This document shows positions 10,004-45,728 of a DNA stretch of 64,000 nucleotides, one piece after another (within the stretch, counting starts at the first letter, position 1; each line of letters begins with the position of its first letter). This DNA comes from Lachnospiraceae bacterium. GTDB taxonomy: Bacteria > Bacillota > Clostridia > Lachnospirales > Lachnospiraceae. Position numbers and translations under genes: made by a program. Under the pieces are notes generated by a model. The model worked only from the letters and a program-made list of their open reading frames with translations. It made no database searches and had not been told where the DNA came from. The DNA lies in assembly GCA_015057505.1 (NCBI GenBank), contig SVEG01000002.1:62001-126000 (forward strand), written 5' to 3'.

Positions 10004-10168
10004 GCTCCATTTCAAACATTGCTGATTTTTCTGTTGTCTGCCAACCTATCGCCCAACAAAAGCGATTAAAATGTGGAATTTTTCTGTTGTTCCCCAACCT
10101 GTCGACCTACGAATCGACTAATCTGTCAGATTTTTAAGGTGTCAGCTCACCTAAAAAAGTTTATCTTT
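9976..10168 (-). ncRNA. Candidate structured repeat RNA, locus 1 (paralogue of locus 2 at 45451-45644)
   Basis: About three tandem units, period 53 nt. Hairpins GTTG-GCAGA-CAAC, GTTG-GGGAA-CAAC and AGGTG-AGCTGA-CACCT alternate with stems ATCGC/GCGAT and GTCGA/TCGAC. Perfect promoter upstream, terminator downstream. Confidence 0.75.
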
Positions 10169-10288: not shown

Positions 10289-11218
10289 TTATTCCCACTC
10301 TTTTCTTTTATCAAGATATAATAGTATTAAGGTAAATATAGTTATTACATTAATCGCATCACTCTGATTTTTAAAAAGAATTTCAAAAGCAAATGTTGCT
10401 ATTACAAATAATATTACTAAACAAAGTAATTGAAATCTCCACAATGTCTTTTTTTGATATTCTAAATCCCAATTTAAACTTTCAACTCGTGTCTGTTTAA
10501 ACTTTTTAATTTCTTCCTGCCTATTTTCCACATATTTTTTTATATCAACATTCGTGGGTAATTTATCAGGAATACTACGTTGTTTTCTACTAACTGCTCT
10601 ATTTATTTTTAGCATTCCATGTTTATTCATAATTTTCAAAATTACCATATTAATAAGGTCTACGTCAATTTTAATCAATCCAAGCAAAATAAATATAGCA
10701 ACCGGATATGAGCAAATTATATTATTAGATATATATGCAAAATATGATGCCAAGTAATCAGCAATTTCTGCATCTACATATACTAAAGCAATGATAGCGA
10801 ATAAATCTATTGTTATAATAATCAAAACGTTTTCAAAATTTTCAAATTTTTTTGCTCGTTTATTTATTATAATTTCAAAAATCTTCAATATTATTATAAC
10901 AGGAATACAAATCAAAAAGCACAAACATAACAATAGCTTATAAATACATTGTATTACTTTTGTAAATCGTCTCGAAATATGCAACTTATTATATATGTAA
11001 AAATAAGATATTAAAAAAAGCATCATCACAGAAGTACATACCGTTACAAAATATCCAAATAGCACTTTATCAATTACAGTTTTGGAAATCAAAAAATAAA
11101 CTATAAACATTATATCAATTATAGTAAAAAATAACACCATCCACAGAAGCCCTTTTTCTCCTATATCTTTCCTTCTGCTTTGCCACAGATTATTAATTTT
11201 TTCATTTATTACTTTCAT
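10289..11218 (-). CDS. Hypothetical multi-pass membrane protein
   Basis: Several hydrophobic segments. Start MKVINEKINNLWQ at 11218 preceded by GAAAGGTG. Preceded by regulatory module R1. Confidence 0.7.
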   Translation of the reverse strand: MKVINEKINNLWQSRRKDIGEKGLLWMVLFFTIIDIMFIVYFLISKTVIDKVLFGYFVTVCTSVMMLFLISYFYIYNKLHISRRFTKVIQCIYKLLLCLCFLICIPVIIILKIFEIIINKRAKKFENFENVLIIITIDLFAIIALVYVDAEIADYLASYFAYISNNIICSYPVAIFILLGLIKIDVDLINMVILKIMNKHGMLKINRAVSRKQRSIPDKLPTNVDIKKYVENRQEEIKKFKQTRVESLNWDLEYQKKTLWRFQLLCLVILFVIATFAFEILFKNQSDAINVITIFTLILLYLDKRKEWE

Positions 11219-11271
11219 ATAATCCAACACCTTTCTTATTTTTAGTAACAATAAACTCTCTTTATTAATTT

Positions 11272-11886: not shown

Positions 11887-12999
11887 TCAACTACACATCT
11901 TTAGTATTGATTGCATACGTTGAACTTGTTCTTCAAAATTTACTTTCTTTGCACCTCGTTGTTCCAAGTATTCCTTAACTTTGTCAAAACATACATCTAT
12001 ATCTCGCAACATTCCATCAGTAAAAGTTATTGTTGTAATTCCATATTGCTTATAGAATTCATTCCTTTTTGCCATTTCTTTTTCCCATTGTAATCTTATA
12101 TCTTCATTCATTTGTTTTTGAGTTTTGCTAGTAATTCCACTCACACTCATATGTGTAGATTGCGGACTTATTTCAAACCCAATCAATTTTTGCGTATAAG
12201 GATTTAATATTGTAAAATCTAATCTATACTTATGTGCTTGATCTTCTTTACTAAATCTGAACTCGGGAATAAGTAACGGAACCTCTGTTACGTTTTCATG
12301 TCTTTTTAGAAACTCAAAATATTTCGCCATTATCTGCTTCTCATAATCAGATCTTGAAATTCTCATTACTATCTGTTCATAAAAATTAATAAAGGCTTGC
12401 AAATCAGAAAACGTATACGGTTGTGGATTTCCTGGCGAAACAATTCCTGTTGACAAAATATGTCCAATCGTCCAATATTCATATTTCGCTCGTCTTATTT
12501 CACTTACATCATTTGTCCACTTTTCTTGCCTATAAGCAGGACTAATCATTATTCCCCAAAATAATGGATTGCTACCAAACCATACTTCCCACAAATTTTC
12601 ATTAGGTTTATATCTTTTTCTTTCTTTCAAATTTCTATAAAAATTTCTTTCAAGAAATGTATTAATATACTTTTGACAAATTGGATACTTCATCATTTCC
12701 AATATAATATATTGATATTTGCCATTTGGCCCATCAAACACTTTTTCTCCATATGCATCACATAAACCTTTTAACCATTGTGCTATAAAGTCATTAGGAT
12801 TAACAAATTCTGTTCTTATACTATCAACAAAAATGTTATTTTTTCCGCCAATAGTACTATGTAACGATTGCAAAGAACAGCTATCTGCCTTACCCTCTCT
12901 AACGCGTAAATTACTATATATTTTTAACACTTCTTCTTGATCTTTCTTTATCACTTCAGTCAGATGTTCTGCATATGCCCATGCACTTGTAAAACCCAT
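11887..12999 (-). CDS. Hypothetical protein, possible PD-(D/E)XK-like nuclease domain at C-terminus
   Basis: PEFRFSKEDQAHKYRLDFTILNPYTQKLIGFEISPQSTH resembles the E...D...ExX layout of restriction-like folds; sits directly downstream of the OLD-type ATPase. Confidence 0.5.
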   Translation of the reverse strand: MGFTSAWAYAEHLTEVIKKDQEEVLKIYSNLRVREGKADSCSLQSLHSTIGGKNNIFVDSIRTEFVNPNDFIAQWLKGLCDAYGEKVFDGPNGKYQYIILEMMKYPICQKYINTFLERNFYRNLKERKRYKPNENLWEVWFGSNPLFWGIMISPAYRQEKWTNDVSEIRRAKYEYWTIGHILSTGIVSPGNPQPYTFSDLQAFINFYEQIVMRISRSDYEKQIMAKYFEFLKRHENVTEVPLLIPEFRFSKEDQAHKYRLDFTILNPYTQKLIGFEISPQSTHMSVSGITSKTQKQMNEDIRLQWEKEMAKRNEFYKQYGITTITFTDGMLRDIDVCFDKVKEYLEQRGAKKVNFEEQVQRMQSILKMCS

Positions 13000-13156: not shown

Positions 13157-15010
13157 TTAATTTTCAAAAATCTCAAATAATTTAACCCATTTAGTAAAAT
13201 ATTCATTAGGAATATCAGCATGCTTCTTGTTTTTAAGTGCTTGCTTAAATGCTTTTGACAACTCTACTTTCCATCCTTCACCTAATTCAACCGAATACTT
13301 TTTTGCAAATTCTTCTATTTGAGGAAGAATAGGTCTTGCCACATCATATTCATCTTCAAAAGCTGCCTCTTCTACAGAAACAAACATACGTGTAATGCCT
13401 CTGTTTAGAAGGCTAAATGGAACAATATCTTCAACTTCACTATTATCCATTTCAACAATATCTTTTATTTCAATAACACGTACTTTTTGGTCTTTGTATA
13501 AACCGGAATGCAACTTTTTCACCGCATCTTTACCCATCTGATCTGAATCAGCAATAACATATGGAAGTTGCTCTGCTTTGCTAGAAACAATGCTTACAAC
13601 ACCTGAAATACCTTTTACACCACCTGATGGTATGAAAACAATTTCCTGCTTAGGGGCTATCTTTTTTTCCTTAATCAAAAATGCCTTGATAGCATTAAGA
13701 TAATATTGATCCGATGGACCTTCTACTATTACAGTTTGACACCCTTGCAAAAGTATATCAGAAACACTAAGTCCCATAGCCGCGTGAACGGCATAAATGG
13801 ATTTTTCATTTAGCGCATCTGTTCCTTGCCTTAAATTACAAGAAGACAATGTATTTCCATTTTCGTCCCTATACACAACCCTGCATCTATCAATGTTTGA
13901 TGTATCAATCAAAAACGGAGAATGCGTTGTGTTGATAATTTGATTTGTCTCCGATAACTTGTCAAAAAACTTAGAAAGATCCTTTTGAGCCATAGGGTGC
14001 AAGGTTAATCCTGCTTCATCCAAAAGCAAAATCGCATTTTTATGTTGTTCTTGACTTTCTACTAAGAATATTAAATAAAAGCTTAAAAACCATTGTAAAC
14101 CTGTGCTCCGCAATTCTAAAGCCACTTCATCTGCTCTTATACTGTCTGAAACCCATATACGGAAATACTCTCCATCTGCTTCAAATCTGAATCTATATTC
14201 CCCTTGATTCCACCACTCTTTAAATTTTGTAGTTAATTCGTTTGATGCAGACTGTAAAAGAATGCTTCGTTTCTCTTTATTATTCTCTGCTTTTTCTATT
14301 TCAGCCTTCTTAGGTATACCAGGTTGATTATTAACCCCTTTTGGTGCATAAGAACTTGCCTCTTGTCCTAAATCTAAAATTTCCTGTGGGTTCAATTTCA
14401 CAAAATCAAACAACACCCTTAAAGTACGTACCTGTTCTTTATTTGGATCTATACCAGTAACAACTTGTCCGTTCAACCATTTTACAACATGTGGTAAATA
14501 AATTTTCGCTGATAAATTCCCATAATTTGAATAATACACAAACTTCGGAATATGTTTAAGCACTTCATTATTTAAATTTTCTATATATATGGATTCATCA
14601 AAATTTTCATCTGCCTTATTTTTTTCCGTTGCTTCTGGGACTCCATTTGGATAATCAAATTTATATGTACCATCATAATATCTAGATACCACAACCGTAT
14701 TTCCTTCACAACAATTTGCGCCAACTTCTTTTGATATTTCATCAGCGCTTTCCTTATCAATCATAAATTCAGCAGATATAAATTTAACTTCTCCTAAATT
14801 ATCACGTAATGTGCTTAGTTTTGAAACTGGCAAATCATGAAGTTCATCTATTTCTCCTTCACGTGCCGGATTGAGTTTCCACAGAGCTAAAAGTAAGTTA
14901 GACTTTCCAGATTCATTAATCCCGACTAATGTTGTAACATCATTACAGTCAATCCAACCACTATCCTCTACAGAACGAAAATTTGCCACTTGATAACGAG
15001 TTAATTTCAT
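13157..15010 (-). CDS. AAA ATPase/OLD-family protein with TOPRIM domain
   Basis: Walker A GINESGKSN; AILLLDEAGLTLHPMAQKDL; NTTHSPFLID; TOPRIM-like VIVEGPSDQYYLNAI...YVIADSDQ. Confidence 0.9.
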   Translation of the reverse strand: MKLTRYQVANFRSVEDSGWIDCNDVTTLVGINESGKSNLLLALWKLNPAREGEIDELHDLPVSKLSTLRDNLGEVKFISAEFMIDKESADEISKEVGANCCEGNTVVVSRYYDGTYKFDYPNGVPEATEKNKADENFDESIYIENLNNEVLKHIPKFVYYSNYGNLSAKIYLPHVVKWLNGQVVTGIDPNKEQVRTLRVLFDFVKLNPQEILDLGQEASSYAPKGVNNQPGIPKKAEIEKAENNKEKRSILLQSASNELTTKFKEWWNQGEYRFRFEADGEYFRIWVSDSIRADEVALELRSTGLQWFLSFYLIFLVESQEQHKNAILLLDEAGLTLHPMAQKDLSKFFDKLSETNQIINTTHSPFLIDTSNIDRCRVVYRDENGNTLSSCNLRQGTDALNEKSIYAVHAAMGLSVSDILLQGCQTVIVEGPSDQYYLNAIKAFLIKEKKIAPKQEIVFIPSGGVKGISGVVSIVSSKAEQLPYVIADSDQMGKDAVKKLHSGLYKDQKVRVIEIKDIVEMDNSEVEDIVPFSLLNRGITRMFVSVEEAAFEDEYDVARPILPQIEEFAKKYSVELGEGWKVELSKAFKQALKNKKHADIPNEYFTKWVKLFEIFEN

Positions 15011-44773: not shown

Positions 44774-45427
44774 CTAATGTCCTCTGTACTCATAACCTGA
44801 TAAATCAATCATATTACAAATTTGTTCCGGTAAATTAATATTCTTGAGATTCAGTCCTTTTGCAACATGCTTTATTGTCGAATAAACATTACTGTCTATC
44901 TCTTTTTCAAATATAGCAAGAACTTGCGATGGAACATCCGTTAACTTTTTTATATCTTCAAGCAATGCAGAAGACGGAACATATACCTCATTCTCTTTAC
45001 TTAATCCCAAACAAAAATTTACTCCACCCATAACTTTATCAACAAAAAGATACGGACGCATATTATTATAATTCCCTGCTATTTTAGTTATCTTTGTCAC
45101 ATCCATTAACGAAGGTAGTGCCAGCAACTTTAAACGAGTGGTTCCGTCTGCCTTAAATACAAATTCATCTCTTCCTAATTTATTTTCAACGCACTTTCTA
45201 TAAAAATTCACTGATTGATTATGTAAAACATTTCCTGTCTTATCAACCAACTCTAACCCTGTTAAATGCTGATAATTTCTTTCATAAAAAACTACTTCTA
45301 TGTATCGAATAACATTATCTTTTCTCTCACGATAAATAACCATGAGCTTTTTATTCAATAATTTTTCTTTATATTGTTTTGCACAATTCAAAACCAACCT
45401 TCTAGCTTCTTCCTTAGTAAATCTCAT
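44774..45427 (-). CDS. PBECR4-like (BECR-fold RNase) protein, downstream of structured RNA locus 2
   Basis: RFTKEEARRLVLNCAKQYKEKLLNKKLMVIYRERKDNVIRYIEVVFYERNYQHLTGLELVDKTGN...FYRKCVENKLGRDEFVFKADGTTRLKLLALPSLM...YVPSSALLEDIKKLTD...VLAIFEKEI resembles proteins annotated with a PBECR4 domain (recognised from memory, not searched). RBS GGGGG upstream. Confidence 0.65.
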   Translation of the reverse strand: MRFTKEEARRLVLNCAKQYKEKLLNKKLMVIYRERKDNVIRYIEVVFYERNYQHLTGLELVDKTGNVLHNQSVNFYRKCVENKLGRDEFVFKADGTTRLKLLALPSLMDVTKITKIAGNYNNMRPYLFVDKVMGGVNFCLGLSKENEVYVPSSALLEDIKKLTDVPSQVLAIFEKEIDSNVYSTIKHVAKGLNLKNINLPEQICNMIDLSGYEYRGH

Positions 45428-45450
45428 ACTTATTTTAATCCCCCATAAAA

Positions 45451-45496
45451 TTTAAAAAGAGAGTAATAACACCATTGTGCTACATACTCTCTCTTT
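45451..45496 (-). terminator. Intrinsic terminator between RNA locus 2 and the PBECR4-like ORF
   Basis: Minus strand AGAGAGTA...TACTCTCTTTTT. Confidence 0.8.
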
Positions 45497-45644
45497 GTGG
45501 CTAATTTTAGTGTTGTCTGCCAACGACCAGCTAAACGCTGATACAAATATCGGATTTTAGTGTTGTCCGCCAACGGCCAATCTCATGATTGACGAGCATA
45601 TCAGATTAAAGTGTTAGCCCACCGGAAAAGCACGCTTCTCCTCT
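45451..45644 (-). ncRNA. Candidate structured repeat RNA, locus 2
   Basis: Tandem units with exact 50-nt period (motif at 45512, 45562 and 45612 on plus strand). Hairpins GTTG-GCAGA-CAAC, GTTG-GCGGA-CAAC and GTG-GGCTAA-CAC alternate with stems ATCAGC/GCTGGT and GTCAAT/ATTGGC. Confidence 0.78.
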
Positions 45645-45650
45645 AATATT

Positions 45651-45679
45651 ATTATACGCCGAGCTAATTTTTATGTCAA
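45651..45679 (-). promoter_or_regulatory. Perfect consensus sigma-A promoter of RNA locus 2
   Basis: Minus strand TTGACA(45679-45674)-17 bp-TATAAT(45656-45651). Confidence 0.9.
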
Positions 45680-45728
45680 TATGAAACTTATCTGTTATTA
45701 TAAACATTGTATTCTACAAAAATACTTC

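Follow-up and report, generated by a model that had tools for sequence, protein, structure and literature searches.

On the minus strand of the window, which is the whole stretch of 64,000 nucleotides analysed here, positions 44774-45679 carry a promoter, a structured RNA, a terminator and an open reading frame, raising the question of whether the RNA neutralises the protein encoded behind it. A preliminary description had proposed this pairing of an RNA-repeat antitoxin with a PBECR4 toxin as a type III-like family, and the proposal is supported by the match of the encoded protein to PF18813, by the recurrence of the RNA and by the lack of an Rfam family claiming it. We found that the promoter, an RNA with three covarying pseudoknots, the terminator and the PBECR4 frame occur as one block in differing neighbourhoods, and judging from sequence the locus very likely represents a type III-like toxin-antitoxin family whose toxin is unrelated to ToxN.

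The locus and its PBECR4 product

The locus starts with a sigma-70-type promoter (45679-45651), TTGACA-17-TATAAT, that matches the consensus at 12/12 positions and was rightly called perfect; the block conserved between genomes begins here. It is followed by a 5' hairpin, GGAGAAGCGUGCUUUUCC (45624-45641), read from the sequence, and by the structured RNA core (45496-45623) with hairpins h1-h3 and strands d1-d3, which is the presumed antitoxin and was defined by an alignment (A2), pair counts and a covariance model (R1). The structured RNA is ~130 nt long. Between RNA and frame lies an intrinsic terminator, a hairpin with a U tract (45454-45496), whose folding energy of -21.3 kcal/mol (z = -6.6) was equalled by none of 200 shuffles, in agreement with the terminator noted earlier at this place. 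A simple terminator scan missed the terminators of both RNA copies in the window, and both were recovered by folding. The frame (44774-45427; 217 aa) begins 26 nt past the terminator and is preceded, as had been described, by its own ribosome-binding site, GGGGGA (45439-45444), read from the sequence.

The product of this frame, the presumed toxin, had been said to resemble PBECR4 proteins, and a profile search identified it as PBECR4 (Pfam PF18813) with 114.4 bits against a cut-off of 27 (E=1.1e-32). An AlphaFold model built from 11 input sequences reached a pLDDT of 89.3 and a pTM of 0.85. The best matches of a fold search of the PDB with this model were weak and partial, RelE, YafQ and YoeB among them, and none was significant (probability about 0.2 for RelE/YafQ), so the assignment to the BECR fold comes from Pfam without an independent match. 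In the BFVD library two viral proteins matched the model well (E 1.9e-13 and 2.5e-11). Across the PBECR4 family H54, part of HLTG in helix 49-56, is invariant, and position 153, within strand 148-155, is S or T. According to the PBECR passages of PMC5512222, RNases of this group combine a His in an N-terminal helix with a Ser/Thr in a C-terminal strand; the window protein has this layout, and H54 and S153/T are its predicted catalytic pair. PADLOC and NCBIfam gave no meaningful match to the frame, and PF13958, the profile of ToxN-type toxins, gave none. Membership in ToxN was rejected, with an hhalign probability of 0.3% and with ToxN missing from the 50 best PDB structural matches. PBECR4 is patchily distributed, being found in 22/196 genomes of the order and in 4/349 of a draw from the phylum, as expected of an accessory gene and as toxin-antitoxin genes are. 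A scan of viral contigs with four divergent PBECR4 proteins found nothing, and a 33-row alignment was too diverse to serve as a search query.

Fold of the RNA

The RNA core carries three hairpins whose loops face single strands elsewhere in the molecule. By pair counts, the loop (45614-45619) of h1 (GGUG-GGCUAA-CACU; 45610-45623) pairs with d3 (UUAGCC; 45499-45504), the loop CGGA of h2 (GUUG-GCGGA-CAAC; 45562-45574) with d2 (UCCG; 45551-45554), and the loop CAGA of h3 (GUUG-GCAGA-CAAC; 45512-45524) with d1 (UCUG; 45602-45605). The pair h2:d2 is a classical, local H-type pseudoknot spanning an A-rich linker; h1 and h3 swap partners, so that the RNA is closed on itself. Two further stem-loops, P1 (GUCAAUC/GAUUGGC; 45576-45593) and P2 (AUCAGC/GCUGGU; 45526-45542), had been noted for changing in sequence while keeping their pairing, and this was confirmed.

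The pairing hypothesis, first read from few sequences, was tested on A2, for which MAFFT aligned 30 sequences without constraints. The rows of A2 were chosen by their GUUG..CAAC stems; the invariance of the h2 and h3 stems results from that choice and is uninformative, whereas the loop pairs played no part in it. For pseudoknots and hairpin stems together, 98.2% of 780 cells were paired, compared with 88.2% in shuffles, and two-sided changes numbered 86 where 25 were expected, a count reached in 0/500 shuffles. Half of the pairs (13/26) vary on both sides, and sliding a partner by 1-3 columns lowered the pairing to 28-56%. The alternative pairing of h2 with d1 and h3 with d2 was 79% paired, showed no excess over shuffles and was rejected. 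In seven sequences outside A2 the expected pairs were formed in 36/36, 27/28 and 28/28 cases (91/92). In Erysipelothrix phage phi1605 each of the three helices is made of other bases (GCUUGA/UCAAGC, UUGG/CCAA and CUUG/CAAG), and one viral contig has the h3 stem rebuilt as GAUG/CAUC. From this covariation we infer the topology with three pseudoknots. Dozens of genomes conserve the RNA, with changes that compensate each other.

These findings modify the earlier picture of an RNA made of tandem units with an exact 50-nt period. A structured RNA with conserved pairing was indeed found, and its hairpins lie where they had been placed, 50 nt apart in the window; simple 50-nt units were not, the repeat content being two imperfect units plus ends within one body of three interlocked pseudoknots. 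Homologues do not keep the exact period, their unit spacing ranging over 47-68 nt. The three loop-strand pseudoknots, as well as the second RNA copy in the window treated below, are additions to that picture. No Rfam family matched the window RNA at gathering threshold or up to E 10, drum (RF02958) and abiF (RF03085) included.

A strongly conserved RNA fold beside a nuclease, with defence genes as neighbours, would also fit an RNA that acts as effector or guide and a PBECR4 that is its processing or partner enzyme, as in an RNA-guided or RNA-scaffolded nuclease. We regard such a system as very improbable here: no segment stands out as a variable guide, the loops that do vary change in step with the strands they pair with in the same molecule, and RNA-guided action is unlikely since no part of the RNA varies as freely as a guide does.

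Association of the RNA with PBECR4

The RNA recurs before close, distant and phage-borne PBECR4 homologues. The whole RNA stands upstream of relatives that share 58-73% identity with the window protein and of one that is further removed; a truncated relative has a shortened copy, and the same hairpin pair lies upstream of distant homologues (25-40% identity). It also precedes PBECR4 homologues in viral contigs and in phage phi1605. When the window was compared with nine loci by BLASTN, similarity began at or just after the promoter (45656-45687) and ended in the frame or earlier, and flanking genes varied among the conserved-block loci that were read. The genes dinB and GNAT were considered as partners of the module and rejected, their places being taken by other genes in homologues.

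The covariance model R1 was searched against genomes with no input from the protein. A PBECR4 frame or fragment lay directly downstream on the same strand in 26/39 loci, and full-length matches above 88 bits had PBECR4 right behind them in 21/26 cases; these counts are not wholly independent of the protein, because R1 was built from RNAs that mostly stand beside PBECR4. In about a third of the R1 matches no PBECR4 was detected downstream, some of them carrying remnants or sitting at contig ends. Scanning IMG/VR for a DNA pattern of h3 yielded four contigs, of which R1 confirmed 4/4, with PBECR4 in 3/4. Orphan RNA copies exist and would fit a small RNA that is unrelated to the nuclease gene and lies beside it by chance, but searches that start from the RNA return PBECR4 in most cases and the conserved block spans the promoter into the frame, which leaves coincidence a negligible probability.

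One orphan is found in the window itself. At 10017-10151 of the minus strand lies a full RNA (R1, 111 bits). It has a perfect promoter of its own (10203-10175) and a terminator (10003-9980) found by folding. Its pseudoknots are essentially intact (h1 loop GCUGA/UCAGC, GGAA/UUCC and UCUG/CAGA). No PBECR4 was found at this copy, which is followed by a GNAT gene, and its nearest relatives (L005, L018 and L022) do have PBECR4. GNAT as a partner of the orphan RNA was not supported, other orphans having other genes beside them. The copy is perhaps a relic; alternatively, it may serve as an antidote against arriving PBECR4 modules. About 3 kb away, an ATPase gene of the OLD family/AAA_15 (13157-15010, minus strand) with many PADLOC matches adjoins two frames whose proteins have no Pfam match (10289-11251 and 11887-12999); together they are a possible defence cluster. 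A further orphan, with no PBECR4 detected, stands on a phage contig (L092:9624-9716; IMG/VR 3300025117_000251) and could, by analogy with the pseudo-ToxI of phage PhiTE, act as an antidote. In another locus (L028:2172-2676) two RNA copies are separated by ~215 nt, and behind the upstream copy stands an apparent N-terminal remnant of PBECR4.

In several loci the RNA is intact and PBECR4 is broken or truncated, as would be expected if the protein were costly and the RNA harmless; this is not proof of toxicity. The same loci bear on the reading of the RNA as a cis-acting leader, a riboswitch or a protein-responsive attenuator that sets read-through into PBECR4 and neutralises nothing. The order RNA, terminator and frame holds in nearly every case, and attenuation dependent on the toxin would also yield co-conservation. 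Against a leader, the RNA persists where the PBECR4 frame is broken, and at 10017-10151, where the frame is absent, with its perfect promoter and its terminator. Anti-terminator pairing was looked for in five loci and rejected, complementarity of the RNA core to either terminator arm not exceeding that of shuffles. A leader acting only in cis is the main rival but unlikely, and neutralisation of PBECR4 by the RNA remains the preferred reading.

PBECR4 modules have defence genes as neighbours (AbiH, type III restriction-modification and SIR2) on plasmid pMP8-1 (L129), in phage phi1605 (L088) and on pCF002-344 (L130). Such phage and plasmid neighbours suggest a role in phage defence.

Other RNA classes and known systems

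Most PBECR4 loci read that lack an R1 match still show a promoter, an RNA and a terminator upstream. In six PBECR4 loci of the first set this RNA scored at or near the gathering threshold of drum (RF02958), and drum with PBECR4 was also seen in a locus from another bacterial family and in E. faecalis plasmid pMP8-1, where it adjoins AbiH. Drum was read directly upstream of PBECR4 in loci L042, L044, L055, L058, L061, L065, L095 and L129. Rfam's own model, run over genomes, gave 31 drum loci; one was cut by a contig end and excluded, and in 25/30 drum precedes PBECR4 or a fragment of it. Unlike the R1 test, this one is independent of the protein. Its place immediately before PBECR4 makes drum the probable functional counterpart of the window RNA. 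Reading by eye revealed a repeat-type RNA of GGUC..GACC hairpins and UAAAAC linkers in two PBECR4 loci and in Clostridium estertheticum; in L054, L060 and L130 this GGUC-loop-GACC RNA resembles tandem H-type pseudoknots. Loci L063 and L096 have further stretches of promoter, RNA and terminator before PBECR4, again read by eye and with no Rfam match. That a single protein family is served by several RNA classes with no relation to each other also speaks against a cis-acting leader.

If the RNA is the antitoxin, most transcripts would end at the terminator, giving an excess of an RNA of ~180 nt, and a minority would read through to yield little PBECR4, a predicted BECR-type endoribonuclease. The RNA would fold into a closed body, with the h2 loop bound to the adjacent d2 and the pairings of the h1 loop with d3 and of the h3 loop with d1 exchanged, and would bind PBECR4 directly and hold it inactive, perhaps once PBECR4 has trimmed the RNA. 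Upon failure of transcription or loss of the RNA, as in phage infection or when the element is lost, PBECR4 would be freed, cut RNA and stop growth. Other PBECR4 subfamilies would act alike with other RNAs, drum included. We lean, with some reserve, towards the broader proposal that PBECR4 defines a new superfamily of toxins neutralised by RNA, spread over Bacillota, phages and plasmids, that its antitoxin RNAs fall into at least three unrelated classes (the window RNA, drum and the GGUC/GACC repeat), that drum thereby gains a function, and that toxin-less RNA copies, one of them on a phage contig, serve as antidotes.

If this is true, PBECR4 adds another toxin unrelated to ToxN with RNAs of its own, the combination of a structured RNA and a nuclease arose repeatedly, and drum, a curated RNA family without a function in the literature searched, becomes a testable antitoxin. 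The compact RNA with its three interlocked pseudoknots is a subject for structural work.

The original description of drum reportedly gives no function. The literature searched names neither a function nor a partner for drum, the drum papers treating its structure only. PBECR4 does not occur by name in that literature; most subscription papers and bioRxiv preprints lay outside it, and other work may exist. Drum shares its place upstream of PBECR4 with the window RNA, which itself has no match to drum in the Rfam scan. To our knowledge, ToxN-like toxins are common to all of the best-known type III systems, and AbiF is a recent exception. PBECR domains of phage polyvalent proteins belong to the same domain clade as the window protein and are predicted metal-independent RNases, solo phage versions also being noted; the passages on PBECR in that paper make no mention of an RNA partner (PMC5512222). 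In AbiF/RCd22 of C. difficile (abiF motif, RF03085) a toxic protein is neutralised by RNA in cis and in trans, and a structured RNA with a terminator likewise precedes the protein; RCd22 has two motifs (PMC12373285). The RNA family is another one, the window RNA having no Rfam match, and so is the protein family, which here is PBECR4. With the ToxIN, CptIN, TenpIN and AbiQ type III systems the locus shares the order of promoter, pseudoknotted repeat-like RNA, terminator and endoribonuclease (predicted here), the H-type pseudoknot with its A-rich linker, and the context of phages and mobile elements. Features of the type III class seen here are the order promoter-RNA-terminator-toxin gene and an RNA with covarying pseudoknots, whereas the toxin is ToxN there and PBECR4 here, and the RNA consists there of 2-5 equal units and here of a single body in which one pseudoknot is local and two are exchanged.
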